From IMG/VR virus record IMGVR_UViG_3300020474_000008, positions 1-64,000 of that record: a stretch of 64,000 nt of DNA. One strand, 5' to 3'. This DNA is from a virus. Position 1 is the stretch's first letter. Every line of letters starts with the position of its first letter. The position numbers were made by a program, and so were the translations under genes. Of this stretch, positions 11,700-34,540 are shown one piece after another. Under the pieces are notes generated by a model. It was not told the DNA's origin, searched no databases, and was given only the letters and a program-made list of their open reading frames with translations.

Positions 11700-12669
11700 T
11701 GATTGTTTCTACTGCTTTGAGGGACTTTTGACGTAGGTCTTCTGGTAAAGGAACAAAACCTAGAGAATCAGACTTTGCCTGAGACTCTTCACTCAACATA
11801 TAACGTAGAGTTTCCTTCACACCAGGTTTGGATTCAGGATAAGCAAGGATCCAAGTTAATGAAACAATAGGATAGGAGTTAGCACCTTCTGGATTGGGAT
11901 CTGCTCCTCTCAGTTTATCATCAAGGACAATCTTGGAAAGACCAGAAGCAGAAGTCTCTGCATTTGCTATAACAAAGTTACCTGCTTTGTTTTGTAAAGT
12001 GACTTGTCTTAGATCACCATTCTTTACATATCCATAATTTACATATCCAATGGCACCAAACTGACCTTGTACCTGTGCTGCTACACCAGAGTTTCCTTTT
12101 GCACCAACACCAACAGGCCAACTAACTGCCTTACCTGTACCCACATTCTTCTTCCATTCAGGGGAGAATGCAGACAATGAATTAGTAAATCCTTTGGTAG
12201 TACCTGAACCATCTGAACGATAGACCACAAGGATATTACGATCAGGACAACCAAACTCTTTCCAGTTGGTAATCTTGCCAAGATAGACATCAGCAAGTTG
12301 TGTCTGAGTCATCTTTACTTCTTCACACTCTGGGTTGAAGTATGCTGGGACAATAGCACCACCAGTCATGGGGATTTGAACCATACCAGAGGGAGGAAGG
12401 TCTTTATCTTTTACAGCACCATCTGAGGCACCAAAGTCAATAGTATTAGCCTTGAACTGACGTACACCAGCACCACTACCAACTGCTTGATAGTTGATTT
12501 GGTTTCCAGTTTCCCTGGAAAATGCCATTAACCAAGAGTTATAAAGTGAAGAAGGAAAGGTAGCACCTGCTCCATTTAGTTTAAACGTTTCTGCTTTCTC
12601 TGTGGAAGAACCACAGGCAACCATGAGAGGGGTGGCAGCAATAACTGCTGCGAGTGCTTTGAGTTTCAT
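11683..12669 (-). CDS. pstS: Phosphate ABC transporter substrate-binding protein
   Basis: A 328-aa lipoprotein. A signal peptide ends with the lipobox LMVACGSS. The mature part has phosphate-binding loops typical of PstS: LNGAGATFPSSLYNSW, QAVGSGAGVRQF, DFGASDG and VVYRSDGSGTTKGFT. It would sit in the periplasm and deliver phosphate to the host PstCAB permease; no permease genes are seen here. Phage pstS genes are known from marine cyanophages, where they are linked to host phosphate stress. It lies 10 bp after a small exported barrel-like gene and is probably co-transcribed with it. Confidence 0.95.
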   Translation of the reverse strand: MKLKALAAVIAATPLMVACGSSTEKAETFKLNGAGATFPSSLYNSWLMAFSRETGNQINYQAVGSGAGVRQFKANTIDFGASDGAVKDKDLPPSGMVQIPMTGGAIVPAYFNPECEEVKMTQTQLADVYLGKITNWKEFGCPDRNILVVYRSDGSGTTKGFTNSLSAFSPEWKKNVGTGKAVSWPVGVGAKGNSGVAAQVQGQFGAIGYVNYGYVKNGDLRQVTLQNKAGNFVIANAETSASGLSKIVLDDKLRGADPNPEGANSYPIVSLTWILAYPESKPGVKETLRYMLSEESQAKSDSLGFVPLPEDLRQKSLKAVETINEEES

Positions 12670-13735: not shown

Positions 13736-14536
13736 CTAGGTTGGGTTTTCACCCTGCTGTGATGGAGCAACTCTGCCAAGATAGGGATCATAGTCCATCA
13801 CATCATTTATGGACTGCTGTGCCCCTGCTTGGGACCACCAGTTCATTTGTGCATCATAGTTCCCTTTGTGGAATGCGTCAATGTGCTCAGGGTGGATAGA
13901 GGACCCCAGTTCAAGGCGGTAAAGAAGAAGAGGAACAGCATAGGTGTTGCCTGAGTTGTATATGAGATCATCTGCTACTGGTCTTGGTCTGACTCCATTA
14001 TCTAGTTTAAACTTATCTCCTCTACAATGTAAATTGATAAGTTTCTTAGCATGGTGTCTTGTAATCAGATAGCAGGCAGTAGAAAACTCATTCACAAATC
14101 TCTTGTGGATCCTTGTGAAGATATCTCCTGTGCAGATGATAGCAATCTGACAACAGTCCCAATCATAGGGCATCTTAGCCACAATGTCTTTCCATGTAAA
14201 GTTCCAATACTTTACAGTATCAAGACAGCAATCATCCTCCATCATGATTGCATAAGGAGCATCAGTTTCCTCATAGAACTTCTTAATCGCTTTAAGATGA
14301 GAGGTAGTACAACCTACCTCACCAGATGACATCATATCAGGGTATCTTCCTTTTAGGATGTGACCCAAATCATCATCTCTACCATCAAAAGCAGAGACTC
14401 TTTGATAGTCATTCACCTCCCAATACTTAAATTGATCCTCCATGTACTGCCATCTCTCTGGTTGCCCATCAAGATTGACGCAATAGATTGGACCCATCCC
14501 TTGGAGTTTATATGCTGCTTTATTTCTATCCATCAA
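13736..14536 (-). CDS. Glycosyltransferase family 25-like (LPS/LOS glycosyltransferase)
   Basis: A 266-aa protein opening IYCVNLDGQPERWQYMEDQF, the N-x-x-R-x-x-R-type start of GT25 enzymes. SGEVGCTTSHLKAIKKFYEE is the family's central helix (E-x-G-C-x-x-S-H), and YAIMMEDDCCLD carries the acidic nucleotide-sugar/metal site. GT25 enzymes transfer sugars to LOS or collagen-like acceptors. It is the last gene of the sugar operon, just before the terminal promoter region. Confidence 0.88.
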   Translation of the reverse strand: MMDRNKAAYKLQGMGPIYCVNLDGQPERWQYMEDQFKYWEVNDYQRVSAFDGRDDDLGHILKGRYPDMMSSGEVGCTTSHLKAIKKFYEETDAPYAIMMEDDCCLDTVKYWNFTWKDIVAKMPYDWDCCQIAIICTGDIFTRIHKRFVNEFSTACYLITRHHAKKLINLHCRGDKFKLDNGVRPRPVADDLIYNSGNTYAVPLLLYRLELGSSIHPEHIDAFHKGNYDAQMNWWSQAGAQQSINDVMDYDPYLGRVAPSQQGENPT

Positions 14537-15742: not shown

Positions 15743-16479
15743 TCCCACTCCTCCTTAATTTCATTCAAATAATAATCAATCTCACGACCATATCCTGCAT
15801 CACCTCTTTGATACCAATAGATGTAATTACATTCAACAAAATTTCTATACTCTGGTCCACCCACAGTGTAACCATTTCTGATTGCAAGATTAGTTAGGAT
15901 ACTTTGATCATTGCGATGTTCTAAGAACCCAGGCAATTCTTCACCCAATGTGCTTGGATCATTGTTGATGCTGATCTCATCTTTACAACACTCTAAGTAT
16001 TCTTCAATTGCTTTGATAGATTTATCACATACTCTCCATATCTGGAAACCTGCTTCTAAATGATTTGATTCATGGTATGCTGTATCATCACATCCCATTC
16101 TAATAAAACAATCTCTCTTGGTTACAAATCTATTCTTTAATGGAGTTGTCAGTAACAATGAGATGTCTTGATCTTCTAGAATTGATTCTACATAACTAAC
16201 CAAACCCTTAGAGAACATGTCTCCACAGTCAGCATAGATTACAAAGTCATTCTCCTCAGCAGATTTAAGCACCTCAAGAATATAATATGGTTTCCACAAC
16301 CAATACCCAGCACCAGTTTTTTGGTCAAGTATTTTTTTATTTTCTTGATAGAAGTTTGTTTGTACTAAATCCTCTCTTGTGAAGGGATGATGTACAAATT
16401 CTTCCTTATGCATTTGATGTAAGAACCTCTGCTGCTTTGCAAAGGTTTCATCAGCATATGATATCAGATGCCAATTCAT
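15727..16479 (-). CDS. Putative glycosyltransferase (GAGYWLWKPY family)
   Basis: A 250-aa protein with GAGYWLWKPYYILEVLKSAE, a motif of polysaccharide-cluster proteins that look like GT-A transferases, then DFVIYADCGDMF as a possible DxD site. ELPGFLEHRNDQSILTNLAI is the probable C-terminal catalytic region. Specificity unknown. Tightly packed between the heptose kinase-like gene and a GT2. Confidence 0.65.
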   Translation of the reverse strand: MNWHLISYADETFAKQQRFLHQMHKEEFVHHPFTREDLVQTNFYQENKKILDQKTGAGYWLWKPYYILEVLKSAEENDFVIYADCGDMFSKGLVSYVESILEDQDISLLLTTPLKNRFVTKRDCFIRMGCDDTAYHESNHLEAGFQIWRVCDKSIKAIEEYLECCKDEISINNDPSTLGEELPGFLEHRNDQSILTNLAIRNGYTVGGPEYRNFVECNYIYWYQRGDAGYGREIDYYLNEIKEEWECTVS

Positions 16480-17260
16480 TTATGTCTCTTTGTGAAAGTA
16501 TGTAAGTACCTTGGTTTTGTACTGCAATAGCAGCTGCCTTATTGGCAAAAGGTATTGCTGTCTCAATTTTATTATGTATCAGATAATAATACACAAGGGC
16601 TGACAAGAATGTGTCACCAGCACCACAAACATCAAATGTATTTACTTTGACACCAGGGTATAGTTTACCCTGGTACTCAGCACCTTTTGATCCCCTTGTG
16701 ATGATCATTCTGTCTGTGGTCTCACCCACCCTGGCATGTTCATACTCATTGATCTTGATGAATGCCTTGGTAGGAGGAACCATTGGTTTCTTTGTATCCA
16801 CAAAGACTGGACCATCAAACCAATTTACAAGGTGATTAAGCATCTCTGCTGAGATGAATCCTTTGTTATAGTCAGAGATGACAAGAGCATCATACTTATT
16901 ATCTGGTAGGGTATAACCAAAGTCACCCACCTCATCTCTCTCATCAAGTCTCATAATCTGTTGATTTGATTTAAGATCAACATATCTGGTCTTGATGGGT
17001 TGCTCTTCATTGGTAATGATACTTACATTCATACCAAACGACAGAAGATTGTAGTAGACATTCCATGCCATACCACCAGTCCTCTCTTCTCTCTCCCATT
17101 TCAAGACAGGTACAGGTGCCTCAGGACTGATCCTATCAACAACACCATACACATATTTGTCTATACAGGAGTCACCTATAAGCAGAACCTTGAATTGTTT
17201 TTGTTGTTGAGTAACTTCCAATCCTTTTGAAGTATCTAACTTCTTTTGCATACTCTGCAC
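16451..17260 (-). CDS. PfkB-family sugar kinase, HldE/RfaE kinase domain-like
   Basis: Up to 269 aa. The N-terminal FKVLLIGDSCIDKYVYGVVD and PEAPVPVLKWEREERTGGMA match the heptose-7-phosphate kinase half of HldE (RfaE). CGAGDTFLSALVYYYL holds the catalytic Asp and anion hole of the ribokinase fold. Predicted to phosphorylate a heptose-7-phosphate or related sugar phosphate. The start overlaps the adenylyltransferase gene by up to 89 bp; a TTG at about 17221 is an alternative. Together with 17172-17567 it makes a split HldE. Confidence 0.85.
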   Translation of the reverse strand: MQSMQKKLDTSKGLEVTQQQKQFKVLLIGDSCIDKYVYGVVDRISPEAPVPVLKWEREERTGGMAWNVYYNLLSFGMNVSIITNEEQPIKTRYVDLKSNQQIMRLDERDEVGDFGYTLPDNKYDALVISDYNKGFISAEMLNHLVNWFDGPVFVDTKKPMVPPTKAFIKINEYEHARVGETTDRMIITRGSKGAEYQGKLYPGVKVNTFDVCGAGDTFLSALVYYYLIHNKIETAIPFANKAAAIAVQNQGTYILSQRDINELASDIIC

Positions 17261-17567
17261 CTACAACCTCTTTTCCTTTCCAATCAGAACCTACTATCAG
17301 TATATCAGGTCGTATGGAATCTATCAATGACTCCAACTCAAACCTGCTGTTAAATGTATGTACCACATCAACCCCCTTAATAGACATCATCTGAAAGACT
17401 CTATCTTCAAGAGGGTAGATTGGTCTAAGGTATCCCTTATCTTGGGCTACCTTATGATCTGAATCAAGTGCCACAATCAATGTGTCACCAAGAGAAGCAG
17501 CATACTTGATTAACTCAAAGTGCCCTCTATGGAGGACATCAAAGCAACCATTGACAAATACAATCAT
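17172..17567 (-). CDS. Sugar-phosphate nucleotidyltransferase, HldE/RfaE C-terminal domain-like
   Basis: A 131-aa cytidylyltransferase-fold enzyme: FVNGCFDVLHRGHFELIKYA contains HxGH, and RPDILIVGSDWKGKEVVGAE matches the second nucleotide-binding site. SYSTTKTIQ replaces the usual G-x-S-T-T-x-I motif. In HldE this domain turns heptose-1-phosphate into ADP-heptose. Standing as a separate gene upstream of the kinase reverses the usual domain order of the fused enzyme. Confidence 0.87.
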   Translation of the reverse strand: MIVFVNGCFDVLHRGHFELIKYAASLGDTLIVALDSDHKVAQDKGYLRPIYPLEDRVFQMMSIKGVDVVHTFNSRFELESLIDSIRPDILIVGSDWKGKEVVGAEYAKEVRYFKRIGSYSTTKTIQGSAYR

Positions 17568-18544
17568 GAGATCTTGTCATACCAATACTTCAACAAATCA
17601 CTAAGTGTAGTATCAATATCATACTCTTCCTTGAACCCAGTCATTTCAACCAGGTTAGAAGAGTCACCATGTTGATAGTGAATCTCATGTGGACGCCAGA
17701 AGGGTTCATGAATCCTCTGCACTACATCATTCAAACCTGAAATCTCAATCAGTTTGTCAGTGAAATACTGCATCTGTCTGGGTGTATCACCGCAGATATT
17801 GAAGACATGGTTAGTCACATCTTCATTCATCATGGCAAGATAGTATGCTCTGACAGTATCACGCACATCCATCACAACTCTTGTTGTGCTGAGGTTACCA
17901 ATCAAAAGTTCTTTGACTTGATAACCCTTCATCATCCTAGCAATCTGATATGCATCAGATGAGATGGAGAAGATACGTCCTCTGCGTGGTCCAGTGTGAG
18001 AGAATGCTCTGGTGATGAATCCTTTTAAGAATCCATTGTTGAATCTCTCTTGGAGATACACATCAGTTGCTGCCTTAGAGGCACCATAGGGGTTGGAAGG
18101 AACAATAGCATCATTCCAATGAATCTTACGTCCATCCTGTCCTACATTGCCATACACCTCTGATGTAGAGCAGAACATCACCTTACAGTCAGGTTGATGA
18201 TCTTGAAGGACCTGGATAAGATTGGCACTACCCATGACATTAGTCTCCATTGTGCCAATAGGATCACGGAAACTAGTGGGTGGGTGAGACTGTGCTGCTA
18301 GGTGGAACACACCATCAAACTCATTCTCCTCAAAGACCTTACGCATGGAGCGATAGTTGGTCAGGTCTCCATACAGGAAAGTGATAGAGTTGTAAGCATC
18401 ATCAGGAACAACATCACGAATGTCACTCTCCATACCATTGGTACGACGAATGAGACCAAATACTTTATGCCCTTCACGATGAAGAAGGTTTGCTAGGTGA
18501 GCACCAGCAAACCCTGAAATACCAGTAATTAAAAATCTTGCCAT
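17564..18544 (-). CDS. NAD-dependent nucleotide-sugar epimerase/dehydratase (GDP-mannose 4,6-dehydratase-like)
   Basis: A 326-aa short-chain enzyme. FLITGISGFAGAHLANLL is the dinucleotide motif, HLAAQSH and FCSTSEVYG give the catalytic Thr/Ser region, and NPYGASKAATDVYLQE holds the YxxxK pair. RAFSHTGPRRGRIFSISSDA resembles the GDP-mannose dehydratase/GDP-6-deoxymannose reductase group. Product could be a 6-deoxy sugar donor. ATGA overlap with the downstream transferase gene. Confidence 0.88.
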   Translation of the reverse strand: MARFLITGISGFAGAHLANLLHREGHKVFGLIRRTNGMESDIRDVVPDDAYNSITFLYGDLTNYRSMRKVFEENEFDGVFHLAAQSHPPTSFRDPIGTMETNVMGSANLIQVLQDHQPDCKVMFCSTSEVYGNVGQDGRKIHWNDAIVPSNPYGASKAATDVYLQERFNNGFLKGFITRAFSHTGPRRGRIFSISSDAYQIARMMKGYQVKELLIGNLSTTRVVMDVRDTVRAYYLAMMNEDVTNHVFNICGDTPRQMQYFTDKLIEISGLNDVVQRIHEPFWRPHEIHYQHGDSSNLVEMTGFKEEYDIDTTLSDLLKYWYDKIS

Positions 18545-19905: not shown

Positions 19906-20844
19906 TTAACCTCTAATACCTTTGCTTACAGTGATCCAGTTGTCAGGGATGAGGAAAGACTCATCAACAGTATGTGACTCAATACCATAAGCAGGTTTGT
20001 AATATTGGAATGGTTTGGGTGCCACAATAGGTTGTGTGGGATTCTTAATCAGATAAGCACCCCACCAGGAGAATGTGCTTCTGGATAGAATACCACCATT
20101 ACAAAGTGACATTAGACACATATCAGTGTGTGGAACACAAGAGCGATGATACTCACCATCACCATCTCTATGGTTGTGCTCATACAACTCAACAGTCTCC
20201 CTGATTAAGAACCTATCATCAGAGAAGAAGTCCTGTTCTTGACACCATTCAACATCATCACTGGTGACAAAGACATAAGCATCATCATCAAAATGAGACA
20301 GTGCCTCTTCATAGTATTCCCAGGTAGGCATAGGGAACATATCCAAGTGCTTCTCAGTCCTGGTAGCATCACCTCTCCTTACATGTAGGAAGATCACCTT
20401 CTCAAAGTTAGACAAGAACTCCTTACAAGGTTCAAGGATTGTAGGTTTGAATGTAAGTTCTTCTAGGAGATTCTCTCTAATGTTCTCAAAGTATTTGTAT
20501 GATTGTAGATACCCATCAAGGTTTGTACCATCCTGAAAGTTGTCAAACAACTCCTTGTCAAATCCATATGACTTCTCTTGCACTGTCTGTACACCAGGAT
20601 TCATCATCTGAATGGTCTGGTCACTATAAATTGCCTGCATTGAGATGTTAGGATTGATGAATCCTACATGCTCCTGGGGGATAGTGAATGCCTCATGCAT
20701 ACCATAGTTGGACTGGTTAGGTGCATCATCAGGTGGGATGACCCAATCATAACCATGATGTTCTGCAATACCCCTAAGCGCAGCATATTGGAAGAGTTGG
20801 TTGCCCATTCTTCCATTGCTACCTAAGCGATCATATCCAATCAT
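19906..20844 (-). CDS. Family 11 glycosyltransferase (fucosyltransferase-like), copy 1
   Basis: A 312-aa GT11-type enzyme. GRMGNQLFQYAALRGIAEHH at the N-terminus, the donor-binding VIFLHVRRGDATRTEKHLDM, and the C-terminal LSRSTFSWWGAYLIKNPTQP. Family members transfer L-fucose from GDP-fucose in alpha-1,2 linkage. It is clearly related to 26372-27166 but divergent, so two separate linkages are probable. Confidence 0.9.
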   Translation of the reverse strand: MIGYDRLGSNGRMGNQLFQYAALRGIAEHHGYDWVIPPDDAPNQSNYGMHEAFTIPQEHVGFINPNISMQAIYSDQTIQMMNPGVQTVQEKSYGFDKELFDNFQDGTNLDGYLQSYKYFENIRENLLEELTFKPTILEPCKEFLSNFEKVIFLHVRRGDATRTEKHLDMFPMPTWEYYEEALSHFDDDAYVFVTSDDVEWCQEQDFFSDDRFLIRETVELYEHNHRDGDGEYHRSCVPHTDMCLMSLCNGGILSRSTFSWWGAYLIKNPTQPIVAPKPFQYYKPAYGIESHTVDESFLIPDNWITVSKGIRG

Positions 20845-21875
20845 TAATTCATTACTCCAAGCACTTTAATAATTTGTTTCTTAGAACCTATTGTGATTCT
20901 AACACAGTCTTCAAGATTAACAAAGGAGCTCCTATCTCTGATAAGAATCTTGTTTTCTTTCATCTTATCTAGGAGAGTTTTTGCATCAGGTGTTTTCACC
21001 AATACAAAATTAGCACTGCTATCAATGGCAGTATATTTGTTTGCCAAGTTGTCAATGAAGAACTTCTTGGCATCATTCATCTCATCAATCCTAGCATTCA
21101 GATAATCAAGATCATCAAGTGCTGCTACACCACACAGTTGTGCCATGGCATTGACTGTCTTACCATTTCTAATCTTTCTAAGATTAAAAAGCAGGTCAGG
21201 ATGTGCCAGCACATACCCAAGTCTCACTGCTGCCAATCCAAATGCCTTAGAGAATGTTCTAGTTACAATCAGATTCTTATGTCCAATCACTAGATGAGCA
21301 CAAGATTGTCTTGCAAACTCATAATATGCTTCATCTACCACAAATAATGTGTCTGGATTTGCTTGAAGCAACCCCTGAATGGTTGATACATCAATCAATT
21401 TACCTGTTGGATTGTTAGGATTGACAATGTATACAACATCTTTATCAATACATTTCTCCCATTCATACTCATGACTACTAAGAGGATCAACAATTTGTTC
21501 CTTTACATAGTGGTCTGTATTGATAGAAATAAATGTATCTACCTGTGTATATGAAGGGGAATAGGTCAATACCTTTGTATCCTTATCCACAAACACAGTG
21601 AAAATGTCTTTCAAACCATCATCAGATCCATTATATACCTCAATAAAGTCTGATGGGAGAGAAACATACTCTGATAGTTTCTGCTTCAACTGAGAGGCAC
21701 AGATGTCAGGATATCTTTCATAGCGATAGAAGTTCTTCATCACCTCAAACACCTTGTTTGATGGTGGAAACTCTGACTCATTCCAATCAAAACATTCCCA
21801 ATCAGAAGATAGGTTAGACCTACCTCCTACATTATAAGGACTTAAAGAATCAACACTCTTTCTATTATTAATCAT
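20844..21875 (-). CDS. PLP-dependent aminotransferase, HisC-like fold type I
   Basis: A 343-aa enzyme with YIVNPNNPTGKLI, LFVVDEAYYEFARQS and TRTFSKAFGLAAVRLGYVLA (Schiff-base Lys), all diagnostic of the histidinol-phosphate aminotransferase group. No other histidine genes are nearby, so within this cluster it more likely aminates an unusual substrate or builds a cap or linker group. That is inference. Confidence 0.88.
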   Translation of the reverse strand: MINNRKSVDSLSPYNVGGRSNLSSDWECFDWNESEFPPSNKVFEVMKNFYRYERYPDICASQLKQKLSEYVSLPSDFIEVYNGSDDGLKDIFTVFVDKDTKVLTYSPSYTQVDTFISINTDHYVKEQIVDPLSSHEYEWEKCIDKDVVYIVNPNNPTGKLIDVSTIQGLLQANPDTLFVVDEAYYEFARQSCAHLVIGHKNLIVTRTFSKAFGLAAVRLGYVLAHPDLLFNLRKIRNGKTVNAMAQLCGVAALDDLDYLNARIDEMNDAKKFFIDNLANKYTAIDSSANFVLVKTPDAKTLLDKMKENKILIRDRSSFVNLEDCVRITIGSKKQIIKVLGVMN

Positions 21876-23146
21876 CAGTCAGGCAATGAAGAGTCTACTG
21901 TAAGAAGTTTTTCAGATGAGAAGATGCCCCAGTTATCAACCAGTTCTTTTCCCTCAACTTTAAGTGTAGCATATTTCTTTGTAGGATGCATGAAAACACA
22001 CACAGCAGACATGTCAATTGCCTCTTGTGGTGACACACACTTGTGAATGAGATCATTCAACCCATTGAGATTATTAAATGTCTCATCCAATTCATCAAAA
22101 GCATAGATTTCTTTGCCCATCTTTGCAAGATCTGTAATCAATCTTGCTGATGGAGATCCAATTGTGACAGGAGAGTTTGGTTTAAATGATACACCAATAA
22201 TGCCAACTGTTGGGTATTTACTACATCTATCCAAAAGGGATTGGTATACATTTTCATTAACCTCATTCGCGAATTCAAGATGCTTTGCTTCTTTGCCCCT
22301 ATCAGAGGCAAACTTAATGAAGGCAGATGTGTCCCTAGGAAAGCAAGTGCCACCAAATGGAGTGCCATACCCAAAGAAATGTGGTGAGATTCTCTTATCA
22401 ATACCAATAGTGTCTGTGATTCTATGCACATCCACATTCTTCATACCATCACAACACTCACCAAGGAAGTTAGCAAAGGTAATCTTATTGACAATGAATG
22501 CATTCAAGGCAACTTTTGCCACCTCTGTCTCTTCCAGTGTCAGGTATTTCTTAGGTGGATTGTTCTGATGCAAGTTACCAAAAATGCCATGGGCAATGCC
22601 TGCATCCTCCCAGTTGTTGGCACCAACAAGGAAGAACTCTGGGTTCATAAAGTCTTTAATGACATTACCTAGTCTCACAAAGTCAGGAACATAAGCAAAA
22701 CCAAATCCTTCCTCAAACTTTCTTCCTGAAATCTTCTCAACAAGACTGATGAGTTTAGCAATAGTACCTGGAAGTACAGTAGATGATAGGATAATACAGT
22801 GATAATCCTTATCACTCTTCTTCAAATTGACTGCAAGGTCAGTAAGTGCAGACTCTACAAACTCTGCTGAGTATCCAGTGTCACCCAGTTGTGTATTGAC
22901 AAGGACAATTGTAGCCTCTGTCTCATTGATTGCTCTACTGTATGAATCAGTGAAGCCAAAGAAGTTTGTATGTGGAAAGATCTGAGACAACCCAGGTTCA
23001 TAGAAGGGTAACTCCTGCTTGTTAAGTTTGTCAAGAACATATTCATTTTTATCTACACCAAGCACTCTGTTGCCTGCTTTTGCAAGACAACAGGCAAGAG
23101 GCAAACCTAGTTTACCAAGACCAACAAAGCTTACATTCATTCTCAA
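21875..23146 (-). CDS. UDP-glucose/GDP-mannose dehydrogenase family enzyme
   Basis: A 423-aa enzyme. FVGLGKLGLPLACCLAKAGN binds NAD, GYGTPFGGTCFPRDTSAFIK holds the catalytic Cys, and GIIGVSFKPNSPVTIGSPSA lies in the C-terminal nucleotide-binding domain. It would oxidise C6 of a nucleotide sugar to a uronic acid using two NAD. Whether the donor is UDP-glucose, UDP-HexNAc or GDP-mannose cannot be told from sequence alone. Confidence 0.9.
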   Translation of the reverse strand: MRMNVSFVGLGKLGLPLACCLAKAGNRVLGVDKNEYVLDKLNKQELPFYEPGLSQIFPHTNFFGFTDSYSRAINETEATIVLVNTQLGDTGYSAEFVESALTDLAVNLKKSDKDYHCIILSSTVLPGTIAKLISLVEKISGRKFEEGFGFAYVPDFVRLGNVIKDFMNPEFFLVGANNWEDAGIAHGIFGNLHQNNPPKKYLTLEETEVAKVALNAFIVNKITFANFLGECCDGMKNVDVHRITDTIGIDKRISPHFFGYGTPFGGTCFPRDTSAFIKFASDRGKEAKHLEFANEVNENVYQSLLDRCSKYPTVGIIGVSFKPNSPVTIGSPSARLITDLAKMGKEIYAFDELDETFNNLNGLNDLIHKCVSPQEAIDMSAVCVFMHPTKKYATLKVEGKELVDNWGIFSSEKLLTVDSSLPD

Positions 23147-23865
23147 TACTCAATAATTGGACCAAAAACAGTAGACCCAGTGATTTGGGCTTCGCAATAT
23201 CTATCTTTATTCTTATCAATGATTTGTTTGACATAATCCATGTCAACTAAATCTGGATGCACCCACCAATCTTCAAAGGGAAGATTGTATTCTTGATTGT
23301 CATTTACATCAGGGAACACAAGAACATAACCACGCTCTTCAAAGATTTTTCTAGAACCATCTCTCACCTTGTGAAAATTTTCATAGTCATAGGGTCTGCC
23401 CTGGTTCAGTGGACTACCACTATTGTGTGGACTGTTTGGTTCACCAACATAAATGTCATGCTCAAATGTGATTGTAGCAAACTTATGGTGGTCCATAACC
23501 TGATCATTTAACTTTTGAAGCAAAGTTAAAGGACTCAACAAACCTGGTTCTAAATCAATTTGCAAGAAGTCAATTGTTTCAGGGACTTCAAGTTTTGAAA
23601 ATAGAAGTGCATAGTCATGATCCACTGCATCACCAATGATGTATGTAGTATCTTCACCCCTATGCTTCTCATATAGTGGTGCATACTTTTCTTCCCACTC
23701 AAACATCAATCCTTTCCAACCATACTCACTTTCAAGCAAATATGTATTGTTATCATTGATAGGTTCTTGGGATCCAAACTCTAAGAAGTATCCATTCTTC
23801 TTAAACTTATTAACATTCAGGACAAATTTATCCTGTCCTGCTGCTCCATTATATTTGATAGTCAT
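23143..23865 (-). CDS. FkbM-like methyltransferase
   Basis: A 240-aa protein. NGYFLEFGSQEPINDNNTYL with GWKGLMFEWEEKYAPLYEKH resembles the FkbM motif I region, and IDFLQIDLEPGLLSPLTLLQ gives the D-x-E/D motif followed by the binding loop. Such enzymes O-methylate sugars in glycan clusters. The substrate is unknown. Confidence 0.75.
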   Translation of the reverse strand: MTIKYNGAAGQDKFVLNVNKFKKNGYFLEFGSQEPINDNNTYLLESEYGWKGLMFEWEEKYAPLYEKHRGEDTTYIIGDAVDHDYALLFSKLEVPETIDFLQIDLEPGLLSPLTLLQKLNDQVMDHHKFATITFEHDIYVGEPNSPHNSGSPLNQGRPYDYENFHKVRDGSRKIFEERGYVLVFPDVNDNQEYNLPFEDWWVHPDLVDMDYVKQIIDKNKDRYCEAQITGSTVFGPIIEY

Positions 23866-25193
23866 GTTGTTTGATTAATAATGCTTCTAATCTTCTGAGT
23901 CTTCTTATCCCTAGGTATTTCAGATACCTTCATCACACTGTAATTCATGTCACCAAGCCTTGACCTCAATCCATTTACAATTTCACTATGTATGTCCTCA
24001 TCACAGTCCTCATTCTGCACATAGTTGAATGTAATGTCCTTGCTTGACTTCTGAATGATCTGGAACATTTTAACAGCAGGCATCTTCTTGTCAATCCAAC
24101 TGTAAAAGTTCACACCAGGTAGTCTGGAACCAGAAGCAGATACCAGAATATCACTGCTTCTACCATTAATCTCCTTGATCTTATCATCCTCCAACACAAA
24201 GGTGTCCTCAGTCTTGTATCTAATCAGAGGCATGTAGTGGTTAATAAATCCAGTGGCAATCAAACCATGAGTACCATCACCATTATCATAGAATTCATCA
24301 ATACCATACTCCAAGTTCTGAATGTAATCCTTTGAATCCTCTGTCTGATACATGAAGGATACCTTCTCCATCTGTCCATAATGACCACAAGGTTTGATAC
24401 CTAGGACAGCATCAACTTTATCATACCATTGATTCAACATCTTCTCAGATGTCACATGAATCTTTTCAATATCATTCAGGAACAGAACTTCTTCATCCAA
24501 GAGACAAGCAAGGATGTAAGCAGAGGATGGATAGGTACAGATTGTCTGGTAGTATCCTGAATTAATCTTATCAACATACAAGTGAACTGTATCTTTGTTG
24601 AGATGATAGGCAGACATATACAGTCTCTTCAACTCATGGTCATAGTACCACAGTGGTGAATCACTATTCTTAGGCACATACCTTCTCAACCACACACTGG
24701 GAGTGTCATACATCTCTGCTCCCTGCTGTTGGTAGGCACGCATATTAAATGCTGCCTCCCTCTTGAAGACATCATCATTGACAAAGAACTTTAACTTATC
24801 ACCACTAGAACCACTAGTTGTAATAGGATATGCCTTTTGATGTGATAGGTTTGAGGCAATAAGATTATTCCTATTCTCCATGATAATCTTCTTTGTGAGA
24901 ACTGGAAACTTCTTCAAGTCATCAACAGTCTGAAAATCATCAGGGGTCCAATTATTATCAACAAATATCTGTCTATAATAGGGAACATTGTTATAGCAAT
25001 GGTGCAGCAACACCCTCATCTCTGACAGTTGATACTCTTTCTTTCTCCACTCAGACCAAGCAACAGATTCCGTTAAAAAAGAAAGTGTATCTTCATACAC
25101 TTTCCCATACCTTTTTGAAAAGGGAACTACATTATAGTACAGTCTCTTAATTATATTAGGAGACTTCTTAACAATACTTTTGATGGTTCCCAT
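23862..25193 (-). CDS. CapK/PaaK-like adenylate-forming enzyme
   Basis: About 443 aa. KKFPVLTKKIIMENRNNLIA, the Ser/Gly loop AYPITTSGSSGDKLKFFV and CGHYGQMEKVSFMYQTEDSK match the phenylacetate-CoA ligase (coenzyme F390 synthetase) family. In polysaccharide loci the CapK branch is linked to adding acyl or amino-acid substituents. The adenylating loop is intact. The start at 25193 (MGTIKSIVKK) overlaps the upstream phosphatase gene by 26 bp. Confidence 0.82.
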   Translation of the reverse strand: MGTIKSIVKKSPNIIKRLYYNVVPFSKRYGKVYEDTLSFLTESVAWSEWRKKEYQLSEMRVLLHHCYNNVPYYRQIFVDNNWTPDDFQTVDDLKKFPVLTKKIIMENRNNLIASNLSHQKAYPITTSGSSGDKLKFFVNDDVFKREAAFNMRAYQQQGAEMYDTPSVWLRRYVPKNSDSPLWYYDHELKRLYMSAYHLNKDTVHLYVDKINSGYYQTICTYPSSAYILACLLDEEVLFLNDIEKIHVTSEKMLNQWYDKVDAVLGIKPCGHYGQMEKVSFMYQTEDSKDYIQNLEYGIDEFYDNGDGTHGLIATGFINHYMPLIRYKTEDTFVLEDDKIKEINGRSSDILVSASGSRLPGVNFYSWIDKKMPAVKMFQIIQKSSKDITFNYVQNEDCDEDIHSEIVNGLRSRLGDMNYSVMKVSEIPRDKKTQKIRSIINQTT

Positions 25194-25506
25194 TGAAAAA
25201 ATCCTCACTGTTTACTGCTTTGTCATCAATATAATAAGTTGCAGAGAACTTGACACCTGTCCTGAGAATATGGAATTTCAAACCCCATGAACGCAGTTGG
25301 TCAAAGGTTTTTTCATAGTGATTAATCTTAGAGTCACATCCTCTACCAGTTTCAATGATGATGTAGTGACCCTCTGACCACAACTTATTGACTACCTCAA
25401 TTCTATCACGATATGGGACAGCTGCAAAGTAATCCCACCTACCTTCTTCTTCAATGTATGGTGGATCACACAGTGTATGGTCTAGGTCAAAGCAGTATTT
25501 GTTCAT
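25168..25506 (-). CDS. HAD-superfamily phosphatase
   Basis: A 112-aa minimal HAD protein: KYCFDLDHTLCDPPYIEEEG carries D-x-D-x-T, IIIETGRGCDS motif II, and YYIDDKAVNSEDFF the acidic motif IV. Size matches capless sugar-phosphate phosphatases of capsule clusters. It could supply the bisphosphatase step needed between the HldE-like kinase and adenylyltransferase, though specificity is not readable. Confidence 0.85.
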   Translation of the reverse strand: MNKYCFDLDHTLCDPPYIEEEGRWDYFAAVPYRDRIEVVNKLWSEGHYIIIETGRGCDSKINHYEKTFDQLRSWGLKFHILRTGVKFSATYYIDDKAVNSEDFFNGNHQKYC

Positions 25507-26375
25507 TTAAGTTTCTCCTTTACGTAATCAAGTGCTTCATAATAATCCATCAGTTCATCATGAGATAATCCTTTTAGATATTCCCAAAGTTGGTTATTCT
25601 TTGTCATAAAAGGATTACTATAATGAGAGTTGGGTGTTCTCTTATGCTCCATATGGTATGCATAGTTATTGATTCTACCAATCTTGTAACCAAACATACT
25701 CCATCTATGGTGCCTTTCTACATCCTCTGGGGCATATGCAATAAAGTTTTCATTCTCTAAGTATCCATCCATGTAGACTTGTTTATTAAAGAACTGAACC
25801 ATACCATACTCTGCCCAACCTTCACCATTACCATGAGGAGCATATCCATAGGACTGGTCAAGCACTTCTGGTTTCCAAGTGGCAACAAACTCCTGCACAA
25901 TTGGTTGTTTGAGTAGGGCATCAAGGTCATCAACATCCTCAATGTGTGTATTCAGGACAACTTTTCTCTCTCCTCTCTCACCAAATCTATATGGATATAC
26001 CACATCTGATTCATGACTATCCAACATCTCCTTTGCTGTCACATAAGAACTGATAGGAAGAATGATATCACTATCATAGTTCACCACAATATCAGTCTCT
26101 GCATCCAGAACCATCTCATTCAGGAGTCTTGTCCTGTGAAAGTGGTCATCATGATTCTCTTCATACTGATAGATCAGATTAGATGTATCAGCAATAGATT
26201 TGATAGTGGGAAGTGCCCACAATTCAAACTTCTTCATCTCATCTGATTCTTTTACAATGACTTTACAGTCAAAGTTATTCAGAAGGAATGATGTGGAAAG
26301 GATGATGTTCCTCAATCTGTCATCAGTATCAATCCTCAGGGGGATGATAAAGGTTACATTACTAAGGTCAATCAT
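25503..26375 (-). CDS. GT-A glycosyltransferase (family 2/chondroitin-synthase-like)
   Basis: About 290 aa. NVTFIIPLRIDTDDRLRNII starts a GT2-type domain, and TDIVVNYDSDIILPISSYVT carries the DxD metal site. GWAEYGMVQFFNKQVYMDGY corresponds to the acceptor-side G-W-x-x-x-D/E region of the galactosyltransferase C-terminal domain. ATGA overlap with the GT11 gene sets the start at 26375. Confidence 0.82.
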   Translation of the reverse strand: MIDLSNVTFIIPLRIDTDDRLRNIILSTSFLLNNFDCKVIVKESDEMKKFELWALPTIKSIADTSNLIYQYEENHDDHFHRTRLLNEMVLDAETDIVVNYDSDIILPISSYVTAKEMLDSHESDVVYPYRFGERGERKVVLNTHIEDVDDLDALLKQPIVQEFVATWKPEVLDQSYGYAPHGNGEGWAEYGMVQFFNKQVYMDGYLENENFIAYAPEDVERHHRWSMFGYKIGRINNYAYHMEHKRTPNSHYSNPFMTKNNQLWEYLKGLSHDELMDYYEALDYVKEKLK

Positions 26376-27166
26376 ATCCTCTTCCATCTAGCAGGAACCA
26401 GGTCTTTTGTATCATTCTTCTCATCCAGTGGTGGACCAAACCATCTCTTAGGTGCAATCACCTGCTTACTATCAGACAACCAAGCACCCCACCAGGAGAA
26501 GGAAGAGTTAGCAATGATGTGATACTGACACATAGACATCAGACACATATCAAACAGGTTACTGTTGCCCTCTGAGATAGAAAATCTGTCAGGAGCAAAC
26601 AACTTTTGGTCAAATGCCCAGATGGGATCATCAGTAAAGATGACAACAGGCAACTCTTGTGGCAACAAACTCAATGCAGTTTCATAGTAGTCAGTGGTCT
26701 GTGGACCATGCCATGGTTGCTCTACATAATCACCTCTACGAATGTGAAGAGCAATAATCTCATCAGACATTTCATCTCTCATCTCCTTTGCTGGATTGTA
26801 GATGTTTGGCAGGAAGGTAAAGTCTTCTAAGAGTTCATCTCTAATATCAGCAAAGTATTTCTCTGTCTGGAAGTATCCAAACAAATCAACATCATCAGGG
26901 CAGGTGTTATACAGGTCTTCATTAAAGTGGAAGTACCCTTCCTGCACCATATTCTGAGCATTATTAAACCTGATGTTCTCTGCTGGCAGACTATCTAATT
27001 TGAATGCCTCAAACAACTGGTGCTCCTTATATGGATCACTGAAAGTGCTGGGTGGAATGGTGAAGTCATAACCATGCTTCTTAGCAATGGACTTCAACGT
27101 AGAGTATTGAAACATCTGGTTTCCAAGGCGACCCCAGAAACCAAGATGATTAAAACTGATTGTCAT
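26372..27166 (-). CDS. Family 11 glycosyltransferase (fucosyltransferase-like), copy 2
   Basis: A 264-aa protein beginning MTISFNHLGFWGRLGNQMFQ at 27166, 1 bp after the stop of the epimerase gene. EIIALHIRRGDYVEQPWHGP is the donor-binding motif and ANSSFSWWGAWLSDSKQVIA the C-terminal family signature. It is directly coupled to a GDP-mannose 3,5-epimerase-like gene, suggesting the donor may be GDP-L-galactose instead of GDP-L-fucose. Confidence 0.9.
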   Translation of the reverse strand: MTISFNHLGFWGRLGNQMFQYSTLKSIAKKHGYDFTIPPSTFSDPYKEHQLFEAFKLDSLPAENIRFNNAQNMVQEGYFHFNEDLYNTCPDDVDLFGYFQTEKYFADIRDELLEDFTFLPNIYNPAKEMRDEMSDEIIALHIRRGDYVEQPWHGPQTTDYYETALSLLPQELPVVIFTDDPIWAFDQKLFAPDRFSISEGNSNLFDMCLMSMCQYHIIANSSFSWWGAWLSDSKQVIAPKRWFGPPLDEKNDTKDLVPARWKRI

Positions 27167-27167
27167 A

Positions 27168-28244
27168 TCAAACAGGATGATGAAGTGGAATGTATGGTTC
27201 TGAACTTTTGATCTGTGATTTAATCCAAGTATATGTCTTTCTGATACCCTCTTCAAGTGTCTGTGAATAATCCCAACCAAGTTTTTCTCTAATGAGATCA
27301 TTGTTGGAGTTACGTCCTCTGACACCCAAAGGAGCATCCAGTTTATGCATCTTTCTTACTTCCTTGCCTGCAACCCTAGCAGCAGTTTCTACCAGTTCAT
27401 TGATGGTTACCATCTCTTCTGAACCAATATTCACTGGTCCCATGAAGTCTGAGTCCATCATGCGTCTGGTTGCTTCAATACATTCATCGATGTACAAGAA
27501 GGATCTAGTCTGTAACCCATCTCCCCACACCTCAATAGCTCCACCCTCCTCTGGGAGGTATGCAACCTTGCGACAGATTGCTGCTGGTGCTTTCTCACGC
27601 CCACCATCCCAGGTTCCTTCTGGTCCAAAAATGTTGTGATAACGAGCCACTCTAACAGGGATACCATGATTACGATTGTAAGCAAAATAAAGACGTTCTG
27701 AGAAGAGTTTCTCCCATCCATATTCTGAGTCTGGGTTTGCTGGGTACGCTGATTCTTCACGGCAGTCAGGGTTATCAGGGTCTACTTGATTATGCTCTGG
27801 GTACATACAAGCAGAACCAGAATAGAAGATCTTGGTCCTGTTGCCAACCCTTTCATTCATCTCCCTTTGTGATTCCAACACATTCAGATTAATCTGAACT
27901 GAGTTGTGCATGATGTCAGCATCATTCTCACCAGTGAAAACAAAACCAGCACCACCCATATCAGCAGCAAACTGATAGATCTCATCAAAGCCATGAATGT
28001 AACGAAGAGGGACAGAGTTATAGAAGTTACCCCTGTCACCTTTATATTCTAAACATCTTTCTACAAATCTTTTATCTCTTAGATCTCCTACAACAAATTC
28101 ATTGGCAGCAGTGGGAGTATATTCAGGAATTTTGAGATCAACACCTCTCACCCAATACCCATCATCACGCAGTCTCTTGACCATGTGACTACCAATGAAT
28201 CCACCTGCGCCAAGAACAAGCGCTTTCTTTACATATTGAGCCAT
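27168..28244 (-). CDS. GDP-mannose 3,5-epimerase-like
   Basis: A 358-aa short-chain enzyme strongly resembling plant GME. Motifs: LGAGGFIGSHMVKRLRDDGY (NAD), SGSACMYPEHNQ (catalytic Ser/Cys region), YGWEKLFSERLYFAYNR (YxxxK), RYHNIFGPEGTWDGGREKAP, WGDGLQTRSFLYIDECIEAT, PVNIGSEEMVTINELVE and GVRGRNSNNDLIREKLGW. The REKAPAA and GDGLQTRSF blocks are near-diagnostic for GME, which converts GDP-mannose to GDP-L-galactose and GDP-L-gulose. First gene of the sugar operon. Confidence 0.9.
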   Translation of the reverse strand: MAQYVKKALVLGAGGFIGSHMVKRLRDDGYWVRGVDLKIPEYTPTAANEFVVGDLRDKRFVERCLEYKGDRGNFYNSVPLRYIHGFDEIYQFAADMGGAGFVFTGENDADIMHNSVQINLNVLESQREMNERVGNRTKIFYSGSACMYPEHNQVDPDNPDCREESAYPANPDSEYGWEKLFSERLYFAYNRNHGIPVRVARYHNIFGPEGTWDGGREKAPAAICRKVAYLPEEGGAIEVWGDGLQTRSFLYIDECIEATRRMMDSDFMGPVNIGSEEMVTINELVETAARVAGKEVRKMHKLDAPLGVRGRNSNNDLIREKLGWDYSQTLEEGIRKTYTWIKSQIKSSEPYIPLHHPV

Positions 28245-28267: not shown

Positions 28268-28296
28268 ATTATATCAACCACCTACTTTTTTGACAA
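28268..28296 (-). promoter_or_regulatory. Sigma70-type promoter of the sugar operon
   Basis: Minus strand TTGTCA (28296-28291), 17 bp, TATAAT (28273-28268). It lies in the last codons of the upstream gene, 24 bp before the ATG at 28244. One -35 mismatch. The form is identical to the methyltransferase promoter at 43930-43958. Confidence 0.75.
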
Positions 28297-28507
28297 GAGC
28301 ATCAAAGTTGGGTTCCATCAATGATACAATCTTCCACAAAATTTCAGTCTTGTCACCAGCAGGTGCTGATGCATCAGTGGTGTGCTCATGAGTTTGGAGT
28401 GCTCTTACTTCTGCCTCCAACTTCTTCAATCTTGCTTCAACTTCTACGTCATACTTGGACATTGCTGCCCCAGTAGCAGACTTTGCTGCTGATCCTTTTG
28501 CTGCCAT
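28274..28507 (-). CDS. Small coiled-coil, late-type protein
   Basis: A 77-aa protein: Ala/Ser/Lys-rich start (MAAKGSAAKSATGAAMSKYD), a coiled coil (EARLKKLEAEVRALQTHEH) and a short helical tail. It has its own CTAAATA late promoter 25 bp upstream, placed right after a terminator. Small late proteins with this layout are often virion components; that is a guess. Confidence 0.75.
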   Translation of the reverse strand: MAAKGSAAKSATGAAMSKYDVEVEARLKKLEAEVRALQTHEHTTDASAPAGDKTEILWKIVSLMEPNFDALVKKVGG

Positions 28508-28539: not shown

Positions 28540-28571
28540 AAAAAAAGCAGGGTAGGTTTCCCCACCCTGCT
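28540..28571 (-). terminator. Intrinsic terminator
   Basis: AGCAGGGT and ACCCTGCT arms around a 10-nt loop, followed by seven T residues on the minus strand. Ends the operon at 28628-29327. Confidence 0.9.
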
Positions 28572-28627
28572 TTACAAAGGTCCATGCACGCCACTTGCTC
28601 TTTGTCTGGAAGCAAGAAACCAACGGA

Positions 28628-28879
28628 TTATTCATCCCGACCAGTGCTGTTTGAGTCCATCCGTGACTTGATAAGATCAATTCTTACCTTTAAATTCTCT
28701 TCTGATTCTCTTTGATAGATGCCATAACTAATATTCATCAGTGTCTGAACTGTCTTCCAACCATGATACCTCTTCTGAGATTTGAACCTCTTGAAGGTAT
28801 CTTCTAGTAGAAGATTTGCATCAGATACTGTCATCCAAGGATGAACAAAGGTTAGATTGATGGCATCTTCCTGGAACAT
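28628..28879 (-). CDS. Small soluble protein
   Basis: About 83 aa from the ATG at 28879, which shares a base with the TAA of the upstream gene (MFQEDAINLTFVHPWMTVSD). Helical and charged, with aromatic clusters (RYHGWKTVQTLMNISYGIYQ). An earlier in-frame Met would overlap the neighbour and is disfavoured. Function unknown. Confidence 0.7.
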   Translation of the reverse strand: MFQEDAINLTFVHPWMTVSDANLLLEDTFKRFKSQKRYHGWKTVQTLMNISYGIYQRESEENLKVRIDLIKSRMDSNSTGRDE

Positions 28880-31123: not shown

Positions 31124-31126
31124 CAG

Positions 31127-31200
31127 AGCCATTCATCAGACTTGAACTGATGACCTGCTGTTTACAAAACAGCTGCTCTATCCAACTGAGCTAGAATGGC
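31127..31200 (-). tRNA. tRNA-Thr (anticodon UGU)
   Basis: 74 nt. Acceptor GCCATTC/GAATGGC, D arm GCTC..GAGC, anticodon stem GCTGT/ACAGC with loop TTTGTAA, T arm ATCAG/CTGAT, discriminator U. Confidence 0.93.
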
Positions 31201-31248
31201 TTGGGTGGGTAGAGGGATTATACTATACCCTCAATGAAGATGGTCTCA

Positions 31249-31392
31249 CTAGTAGTAATAGTGATCCTCAATCTTTTCAGTCCTCTTGGTAAGAGTTCTG
31301 TGTTTCCACAGCGGGCACCACCCCTGACTTACTTCACCATTACAGAGTGCATGACCACATCTGTTATTCTGGCATACCCTATGGAGAATGAT
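31249..31392 (-). pseudogene. Possible decayed or non-AUG zinc-ribbon micro-gene
   Basis: This stretch between tRNA-Arg and tRNA-Thr has a frame reading RVCQNNRCGHALCNGEVSQG then WCPLWKHRTL and a charged tail ending at 31249. Cys spacing resembles a zinc ribbon, but the last expected Cys is Trp and no ATG, GTG or TTG starts it. Probably a remnant, or a gene with a rare start. Confidence 0.35.
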
Positions 31393-31403
31393 CAGTTCTC
31401 CAA

Positions 31404-31477
31404 CGACTCAAGTAGGATTCGAACCTACGACCGACTGCTTAGAAGGCAGTTGCTCTGTCCAGCTGAGCTATTGAGTC
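31404..31477 (-). tRNA. tRNA-Arg (anticodon UCU)
   Basis: 74 nt. Acceptor GACTCAA/TTGAGTC, D arm GCTC..GAGC, anticodon stem ACTGC/GCAGT with loop CTTCTAA, T arm GTAGG/CCTAC, discriminator G. First tRNA of the array. Reads AGA/AGG, codons common in AT-rich phage genes. Confidence 0.94.
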
Positions 31478-31481
31478 AGAG

Positions 31482-33238: not shown

Positions 33239-33404
33239 ATAATGATTTCATCTCATTTTTATATATATCATTCTCATGGAAATGATAATCATCAATCTTT
33301 TTTGCCTTGACTTTTTGTTGAGGGGGAGTCAAAGGTTCAATAGCCTCCATCTCCCACCAAATTTCCTCAAAGCTTGAATCCTGAGAAGGTGTTTTCTTCA
33401 ACAT
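33225..33404 (-). CDS. Small acidic/basic protein downstream of nrdB
   Basis: About 59 aa from the ATG at 33404 (MLKKTPSQDSSFEEIWWEME...). The start lies inside nrdB, overlapping by about 38 bp, and the end overlaps the endonuclease gene by 14 bp. No motif. Possible because of its position, but the double overlap keeps confidence moderate. Confidence 0.55.
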   Translation of the reverse strand: MLKKTPSQDSSFEEIWWEMEAIEPLTPPQQKVKAKKIDDYHFHENDIYKNEMKSLCGRD

Positions 33405-34533
33405 CTTGCTTAATACCCCCAACAACATAACTTTCTACCTCTGTTTCCTGTGGTGCTACTTGCAATCCCTTAGAAGAGATCCAATGCTGTGTCCATGGAA
33501 GTGGATTAGCATTAGCAGCAATGTCATACATGGGTTTCAGACCCAATGATTTCATTCTGCGATTGGCAATCCATTCAACATACTTTTTAAGAAGTGCATC
33601 ATTAAGACCAATCATACTGCCATCCTGGAACAGATAGTCTGCCCATTTCTTCTCTTCATTGACTGCCTTGTCAAACATTGCATAGACATTCTCTTCTTCC
33701 TCTTTGGCAATCTCTGCCATCTCAGGATCATCACCCTGCTTCCACTTATTCAGAATGTTCTGGGTGATGGCAAGGTGTTGGTTCTCATCTCTTGCAATCA
33801 GTGAGATAATCTTTGCAGATCCCTCCATAAGTTTGAGTTCACCAAATGCAAAACTGCAAGCAAAACTAACATAGAACCTAATACCCTCAAGAATGTTAAC
33901 GTTAGCAACAGCTCTGTAAAGCTTTCTCTTAACATCTTTTTTAGTCCAGACAGAGGATGGAGAATCTTTCCAATCCTCCTCCCACATACTGCCAGTCCCA
34001 TACTCTTGGGCTGCTTGAATGAACGAGTCATATGCTTCTGTTACACTCCTTGCTCTTTCCAAGATTCTTTCATCAGTAATAATCTTATCAAAGACCTCTG
34101 ATGGGTCAGAGTAGACATTCTTGATAATATATGTATAGGAACGACTATGGATCATCTCCATAAATCCCCACACCTCCATACATGCTTCTAGTTCAGGTAG
34201 AGAGCAGTAAGGTATAAAAGCCATCCCAGGACCACGCCCTTGAATGGAGTCAAGCATAATCTGGTATTTGAGGTTAGAGGTATAGATATGCTTTTGTTCT
34301 GGACGAAGCGACTGATAATCTCCACGATCTTTCTGTAATGATACCTCCTCTGGTCTCCAAAAATATCCCAACTGTTGTGTTGTAAGCTTCTCAAAGACAG
34401 GATACTTATAAGAATCATATCTTTGTACCCCCAAAGGGGCACCAAAAAACATAGGTTGTTTCTTGGTGTCATGAGGGTTGCTGTTGAATACAGTCATACC
34501 CTTCACCTTCTTATCATCTAATGTATTATTCAT
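33367..34533 (-). CDS. nrdB: Ribonucleotide reductase, beta subunit
   Basis: A 388-aa class I small subunit. LGYFWRPEEVSLQKDRGDYQ, the metal-ligand helix YCSLPELEACMEVWGFMEMI with HSRSYTYII, and IARDENQHLAITQNILNKW supply Glu/His ligands of the di-iron site. Works with NrdA to make dNTPs for phage replication. Start at 34533, 8 bp after the nrdA stop. Confidence 0.97.
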   Translation of the reverse strand: MNNTLDDKKVKGMTVFNSNPHDTKKQPMFFGAPLGVQRYDSYKYPVFEKLTTQQLGYFWRPEEVSLQKDRGDYQSLRPEQKHIYTSNLKYQIMLDSIQGRGPGMAFIPYCSLPELEACMEVWGFMEMIHSRSYTYIIKNVYSDPSEVFDKIITDERILERARSVTEAYDSFIQAAQEYGTGSMWEEDWKDSPSSVWTKKDVKRKLYRAVANVNILEGIRFYVSFACSFAFGELKLMEGSAKIISLIARDENQHLAITQNILNKWKQGDDPEMAEIAKEEEENVYAMFDKAVNEEKKWADYLFQDGSMIGLNDALLKKYVEWIANRRMKSLGLKPMYDIAANANPLPWTQHWISSKGLQVAPQETEVESYVVGGIKQDVEENTFSGFKL

Positions 34534-34540
34534 TGAAACT

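Follow-up and report, generated by a model that had tools for sequence, protein, structure and literature searches.

A GDP-mannose 3,5-epimerase homologue beside fucosyltransferase-like genes points to a possible L-galactose pathway in a cyanophage-like glycan cassette

What would a virus do with a GDP-mannose 3,5-epimerase (GME) whose gene is followed almost without a gap by a gene for a fucosyltransferase-like enzyme? The question is raised by a 64,000-nucleotide stretch of virus DNA (IMG/VR record IMGVR_UViG_3300020474_000008, positions 1 to 64,000; hereafter the window), taken from a 69,602-base (69.6-kb) record that is possibly a fragment of a larger genome. A first-pass annotation had placed a GME-like epimerase at the head of an operon here, followed after 1 bp by a family GT11 transferase, with a second GT11 gene at 19906 and no obvious GDP-fucose synthase (Fcl), and had suggested that the virus may decorate a glycan with L-galactose. 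These gene assignments were all borne out (the epimerase reading frame carries the motifs originally quoted for it), and the three genes concerned are as follows.

27168..28244, (-): GME (GM35E) homologue, 358 amino acids (aa), opening the glycan cassette; best PDB match 2c59
26372..27166, (-): GT11 transferase "a" (GT11a), 264 aa; PF01531 at 89 bits against a cut-off of 23.9; PHROG 2644
19906..20844, (-): GT11 transferase "b" (GT11b), 312 aa; PF01531 at 72 bits against a cut-off of 23.9; PHROG 2644

The closest solved structures to the 27168-28244 enzyme are GDP-mannose 3,5-epimerases, 2c59 from Arabidopsis (E=1.8e-85) and 8sg0 (E=3.4e-82), with the next family reached only at 2.6e-22, and the protein is 44% identical to Arabidopsis GME (AtGME) across 342 columns. 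With AtGME residue numbers transferred by hand from the PDB-search alignment, all eight catalytic or binding residues are kept: the short-chain dehydrogenase/reductase (SDR) triad S144/Y175/K179, the Cys acid and Lys base (C146 and K218, not His), the Cys-acidifying Arg (R311), the diphosphate-binding Arg (R247) and the orange-wall Asn (N204). The SDR glycine motif GxxGxxG is present as GAGGFIG, and the eight residues, C146 and K218 included, are invariant in 234/234 viral loci (the window and repeated contigs counted). GME is described as differing from GDP-fucose synthase in that its base is Lys rather than His and its Cys-acidifying residue Arg rather than Lys (PMC8787198). In the same alignment, the fucose synthase of phage S-SCSM1 shows His where the base lies and no residue opposite the Arg, and the fucose-synthase profile NF047922 gives the window GME 95-97 bits versus 455 and 422 for the Fcl proteins of S-SCSM1 and ACG-2014f, all of these lying below its curated cut-off of 500. 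A fucose synthase or a UDP-glucose 4-epimerase (GalE) was also considered for this gene and was ruled out by the Lys base and the score gap. The sequence thus strongly supports identification as GME rather than Fcl or GalE, and the enzyme very probably makes GDP-L-galactose from GDP-mannose.

The window GME agrees with AtGME, and probably with MfGM35E from Methylacidiphilum, in fold family, in the eight tested residues, in the NAD-binding glycine motif and in the likely substrate GDP-mannose. It differs from AtGME in lying in a phage operon with fucosyltransferase-type genes rather than serving ascorbate synthesis. In a GME tree, AtGME and the outgroup both sit on long branches that join each other, which leaves it uncertain how deep the phage clade is. 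Among at least 37 phage records listed with a GME gene (with GenBank and RefSeq copies counted separately), 10 are annotated as UDP-glucose 4-epimerase and 1 as GDP-mannose-3',5'-epimerase.

The mechanical open reading frame (ORF) of GT11a begins at 27337, within the GME gene; since GT11 homology starts near the ATG at 27166, we place the gene at 26372-27166, which leaves a 1-bp gap after the GME stop codon. An AlphaFold2 model of the 264-aa protein, built with 22 alignment rows, has a mean predicted local distance difference test score of 92.2 and a predicted template-modelling score of 0.91. Its nearest structures by VIA-align are NodZ, POFUT1, AtFUT1 and FUT8; the top 43 rows are all fucosyltransferases (Z 15.0 to 11.9) and are followed by a GT9 enzyme at Z 10.8, while the superposition on NodZ (Z 15.0, 221 residues aligned, 3.3 A) places GT11a in the fucosyltransferase GT-B fold. 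All 50 of the 50 rows listed by Foldseek are likewise fucosyltransferases; a search of the PDB with the GT11a sequence returned no match at E≤0.001. A common fold does not identify the donor; in vitro use of GDP-L-galactose is reported for mouse FUT8 and for fucosyltransferases of Arabidopsis (as cited in PMC8787198). The same source describes a GM35E working with promiscuous fucosyltransferases (the mur1 mutant of Arabidopsis, and in vitro L-galactosylation), which follows the logic proposed here; there L-galactose replaces missing fucose, or the system is a laboratory one, whereas the window would hold a module kept by selection.

To place this gene pair in a wider context, we assembled 234 viral GME loci from three GME scans of IMG/VR, one fucose-synthase scan and named phages. 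As the set includes the window, the named phages and repeated contigs, counts rest on 145 representatives obtained by collapsing GMEs at ≥95% identity (137 with ≥700 bases downstream, 120 with ≥3.2 kb downstream and 140 with ≥450 nt upstream). Neighbouring GT10 and GT11 genes were detected with in-house hidden Markov models; Pfam supported the GT10 class in the two proteins checked (46 and 44 bits against a cut-off of 23.9), and one GT11 neighbour match, at locus L053, is weak (28% identical). Among the matches listed, the named phages with the closest GME relatives are T4-like Synechococcus and Prochlorococcus phages, for example SynMITS9220M01 (Kyanoviridae).

Within 3.2 kb after GME, the 120 representatives hold GT10 in 38 cases, GT11 in 34, both in 0 and neither in 48 (Fisher p=1.4e-7, in a test that ignores competition of genes for space and the kinship of the phages). 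GT10 is concentrated within 2.7 kb after GME, with 41 matches in the first three 900-bp bins and 6 in the next seven. A distant GT11 is nonetheless found in 23 of the 30 representatives that have a near GT10 and ≥9.9 kb downstream. In the comparison set of 32 non-redundant fucose-synthase loci (some with GME too), neither GT10 nor GT11 directly adjoins the synthase in any, and GT10 occurs once across the first four 900-bp bins. Overall, GT11 accompanies both donor routes and GT10 mainly GME. Taken from the side of the transferase, a GT10 of the S-SM2 type is present in 20 phage records, 13 of them among the GME matches listed, four among the fucose-synthase matches listed (S-SRM01 twice, LR756501 and LR756503) and three in neither. 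Most simply, these counts can be read as a single slot behind GME that is occupied by one or other of two fucosyltransferase-type enzymes, with GT10 seeming to take GT11's place in many related phages. The proposed coupling of GME to fucosyltransferase-like enzymes thereby gains comparative support across the 120 loci; the transfer of L-galactose by GT11 is the part of that proposal which we keep conditional. At one locus (L075), the gene after GME encodes a 290-aa protein with no Pfam match above cut-off that by eye resembles a GT23/NodZ-type fucosyltransferase and could be a third kind of GME partner. A 24-kb contig binned as Rhodobacteraceae (NZVE01000057.1, locus L271) carries cyanophage-like GME, GT10 and GT11 genes and a wcaG RNA, and may be a misbinned phage contig.

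Host genomes offer a second comparison. In a sample of 300 genomes from the family of a GME-bearing Prochlorococcus (this centre genome was chosen for having GME; completeness of the genomes is not stated), GME was found at E≤1e-60 in 1, the centre genome itself, and Fcl at E≤1e-100 in 176, with no Fcl gene reaching the curated 500 bits; three further Prochlorococcus genomes with GME came from another collection. It thus seems that the phage supplies an activity mostly missing from its hosts, in which GDP-L-fucose would often be available. An Fcl-level score was reached in 1 of 16 GME-bearing records (S-SCSM1). Within the 69.6-kb record, the sole NF047922 match at E≤0.001 is GME itself, so the earlier remark that no fucose synthase was apparent extends to the whole record; this absence belongs to the record rather than to the phage genome, as the record is possibly a fragment, and the frequency of Fcl in hosts makes it weak evidence.

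We propose that GME would take host GDP-mannose through oxidation at C4, epimerisation at C3 and C5 by the Cys and Lys, and re-reduction, giving GDP-L-galactose, probably with some GDP-L-gulose, and that the adjacent GT11a would add L-galactose to a glycan that the cassette's other glycosyltransferases assemble. If the GME is active, the adjacent GT11 probably uses what it makes; for the whole chain, from GME-made GDP-L-galactose to transfer by GT11, the sequence evidence leans in favour. The glycan would most likely belong to the surface of the infected cyanobacterium, as a polysaccharide or lipopolysaccharide. The remaining cassette genes that bear on acceptor and donor are listed below.

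25503..26387, (-): cassette protein, possibly a glycosyltransferase (a guess from position); PHROG 15655 (unknown function) at E=8e-90; no Pfam match
25168..25506, (-): small HAD-like protein (label by eye), 112 aa; no Pfam match
23862..25208, (-): adenylate-forming PaaK/CapK-like enzyme; NCBIfam PaaK-type ligases at ≤54 bits, all below cut-offs; no Pfam match
23143..23865, (-): possible FkbM-type methyltransferase (label by eye); no Pfam or PHROG match
21875..23146, (-): nucleotide-sugar 6-dehydrogenase (UDP-glucose/GDP-mannose dehydrogenase family); TIGR03026 at 244 bits against a cut-off of 189.8
20844..21875, (-): HisC-like pyridoxal-phosphate aminotransferase; PF00155 at 130 bits; TIGR01141 at 252 bits, below its cut-off of 276.6
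17564..18544, (-): GDP-sugar 4,6-dehydratase-like SDR; best PDB match 7us5, E=5e-52
16451..17567, (-): HldE-like kinase and nucleotidyltransferase pair, overlapping (16451-17260 and 17172-17567); rfaE_dom_I at 131 and rfaE_dom_II at 107 bits, both under cut-offs
13736..14536, (-): GT25 (lipopolysaccharide-type) glycosyltransferase near the cassette end; PF01755 at 52 bits against a cut-off of 24

The GT25, HldE-like and other surface-polysaccharide genes would favour host lipopolysaccharide or capsule over the virion as the target. In the PDB search, the 17564-18544 SDR is nearest to GDP-D-glycero-D-manno-heptose 4,6-dehydratase; it was also considered as a standard GDP-mannose 4,6-dehydratase (GMD) and rejected, with TIGR01472 at 112 bits against a cut-off of 415 and a GDP-heptose dehydratase as its nearest structure.

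A number of observations weigh against the proposed L-galactose transfer, some through the sample and some through the alternatives they support. Each IMG/VR scan kept the best 80 matches per query, so that most loci entered the set as top matches to one of three GME queries, and the sample is not random. Direct adjacency is uncommon (GT11 immediately follows GME in 20 of the 137 representatives and GT10 in 9), and as a sole argument it was dropped for that reason; the 48 of 120 representatives with neither gene nearby point the same way. GME and Fcl occur together in the fetched stretch of 20 of the 234 GME loci, and in 12 of the 120 representatives, so GME is no simple replacement of the fucose route, and a strict replacement of GMD/Fcl by GME was rejected on this count. 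Decoration of the virion, part of the original suggestion, found no support over decoration of a host polysaccharide, as nothing favours the virion as target.

The strongest alternative, which we nevertheless regard as rather unlikely, is that GT11a and GT11b are ordinary fucosyltransferases acting on host GDP-L-fucose, the GME product being used by another transferase such as the 25503-26387 protein. With Fcl in over half of the sampled hosts, GT11 may indeed use host GDP-fucose; the rarity of GME beside common Fcl supports a purpose for GME, yet equally leaves room for this explanation. Cyanophage cassettes moreover often contain GT11 anywhere along their length, at a distance from GME as well as in the neighbourhood of fucose synthase (second 900-bp bin, 6/32 loci; fourth, 11/30), and ACG-2014f carries GMD and fucose synthase, then one gene, then GT11. 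This alternative is harder to reconcile with an exclusive GT10-or-GT11 choice beside GME when a distant GT11 is common in the same phages. Furthermore, a FastTree built from 133 GT11 proteins requires at least 6 switches of the label "next to GME" on starred branches, and GT11 lineages thus appear to have reached the GME-side position repeatedly; this tree has long branches and only 7 rows from fucose-synthase-only loci and says little on donors.

An improbable second alternative makes GDP-L-galactose an intermediate only, converted by a further enzyme into another L-sugar before transfer. It is supported by a conserved SDR that 44 of the 120 representatives have no more than 3.2 kb from GME (for example L272:9019-9861; loci L006-L236), through which the GME product may be converted further in those loci. 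This SDR is 60-69% identical to a Prochlorococcus protein, among the matches listed; in two Prochlorococcus genomes it directly follows GME and is itself followed by a gene of mannose-1-phosphate guanylyltransferase type (named by eye). Its best PDB match is at E=1.7e-9 and no function is assigned. The window cassette might supply such a step through its 21875 6-dehydrogenase, but the searched 29.3-kb part of the window holds no relative of the SDR, which also occurs in just 2 of the 26 loci with GT11 directly after GME (both on the same contig, and some of the 26 short downstream) and in whose presence a nearby GT11 is less frequent (Fisher p=0.02 across non-redundant loci).

Least likely, and quite improbable, is another product or substrate for GME, mainly GDP-L-gulose or a GDP-heptose: GDP-L-gulose is a known GME side product (PMC8787198), BlmG, for which synthesis of an L-gulose donor has been proposed, shares 42% identity with AtGME (PMC6678494), so that 44% identity leaves the product unfixed, and heptose-type matches stand in the cassette (7us5 for 17564-18544, and the rfaE domains), but a relative of the heptose-type dehydratase (>100 bits) occurs in 13 of 86 loci examined, many of them short, and so is no fixed partner, and GME has neighbours of GDP-mannose type in a few bacteria (a mannose-1-phosphate guanylyltransferase-type gene, by eye, adjoins it in two Prochlorococcus genomes and one Polynucleobacter genome; by BLAST a ManC-type gene is adjacent in 3 of 80 bacterial loci and within 8 kb in 2 more, a weak signal).

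A phage GME was named in 2022 (S-SCSM1 ORF123; PMC9602691), with its fucosyltransferases listed separately and, in the portion available, no link drawn, and the gene is also named in the introduction of PMC10665884. The S-SCSM1 protein is 67% identical to the window GME and likewise lies in a glycan cassette with GT11, but there GMD and Fcl come directly before GME and GT11 is the third gene after it, whereas the window record has no Fcl and GT11 at once after GME. The ACG-2014f cyanophages, of the same phage group, also have GT11 after sugar-nucleotide genes; they carry GMD and fucose synthase, and no GME was found in them. With this phage GME and a characterised bacterial one (PMC6678494), the earlier view of L-galactose as mainly a plant and algal sugar needs amendment as regards its synthesis. 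In the open-licence literature searched, so far as the texts were available, no paper coupled a phage GME to fucosyltransferases or the wcaG RNA to GME; the GT10-or-GT11 pattern after GME, the host rarity of GME and the wcaG-GME association are new here.

The last of these concerns the region upstream of the cassette, in which three elements precede GME.

28580..28671, (-): wcaG RNA (RF01761), a cis-regulatory riboswitch candidate; cmscan 49.2 bits against a gathering score of 42
28540..28572, (-): intrinsic-terminator-like hairpin just after the wcaG RNA, a 10-bp stem then a T run (script and sequence reading)
28274..28507, (-): 77-aa ORF between terminator and GME, preceded by CTAAATA

The CTAAATA sequence may be a T4-like late promoter, and the 77-aa ORF makes control of GME by the window wcaG copy uncertain. 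A model (R1) built partly from the window sequence gives the RNA 60.5 bits. In a survey with a model from seven such RNAs (matches at E≤0.01), wcaG lies within 400 nt upstream of GME in 60 of the 140 representatives (median 70 nt), at 400-6,000 nt in 44 and nowhere in that range in 36. When 17 whole records were searched with stricter filters, 12 had exactly one match, which in 11 lay within 3.5 kb upstream of GME on the same strand and in the twelfth (G001) near the other record end; four GME phages (W03, W06, W07, W08) and ACG-2014f had none. Loci with fucose synthase and without GME have wcaG within 6 kb of GMD in 9 of 21 cases. A terminator-like hairpin follows within 70 nt of the wcaG 3' core motif at 91/91 representative sites, compared with 23 of 2,900 random stretches, a count based on a short sequence motif and not the full wcaG model; separately, a TATAAT/TATGAT box lies within 110 nt of that motif at 66/91 sites. 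The RNA and hairpin may form an attenuator, or a 3'-end element of an upstream transcript. In 2010 the wcaG motif was put forward as a candidate riboswitch, lying close to exopolysaccharide genes in cyanophages and marine samples (PMC2864571), and the RNA has been noted in two cyanophages (PMC9602691, PMC9964418); the frequent position before GME is not noted in the available part of the 2010 paper.

A more ambitious and tentative version of the L-galactose proposal would see a dedicated L-galactosylation module in T4-like cyanophages, in which wcaG RNA and terminator form an attenuator that perhaps responds to a GDP-sugar, GME produces a donor rarely made by hosts, and GT10 or GT11 enzymes, recruited several times, are specialised for GDP-L-galactose. 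Were this so, the orphan wcaG riboswitch candidate would gain a pathway and a short list of ligands.

A T4-like cyanophage origin of the window is consistent with its tRNA genes, PstS, PhotoRC-II RNA and NrdB-like ORF. The features outside the glycan cassette include the following.

380-476, (-): PhotoRC-II RNA, 73.6 bits; such RNA is described as preceding psbA
7212-8645: 477-aa ORF beyond the glycan cassette
8645-9685, (-): 6-phosphogluconate dehydrogenase (Pfam)
11683-12669, (-): PstS; TIGR00975 above cut-off
31202-31402, (-): manA RNA (RF01745, 94 bits), nearly filling the gap between tRNA-Thr (31126-31200) and tRNA-Arg (31403-31478)
33367-34560: NrdB-like ORF, read by eye

If GME and the adjacent GT11 act as proposed, viruses would add to cyanobacterial glycans a sugar whose GME route most sampled hosts lack, which would matter for grazing, for the masking of receptors and for keeping other phages out. 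Natural L-galactosyltransferases would then exist in families GT10 and GT11, the wcaG RNA would be tied to a definite sugar-nucleotide pathway with directly testable ligands, and the UDP-glucose 4-epimerase annotations of the phage GME gene would be corrected.

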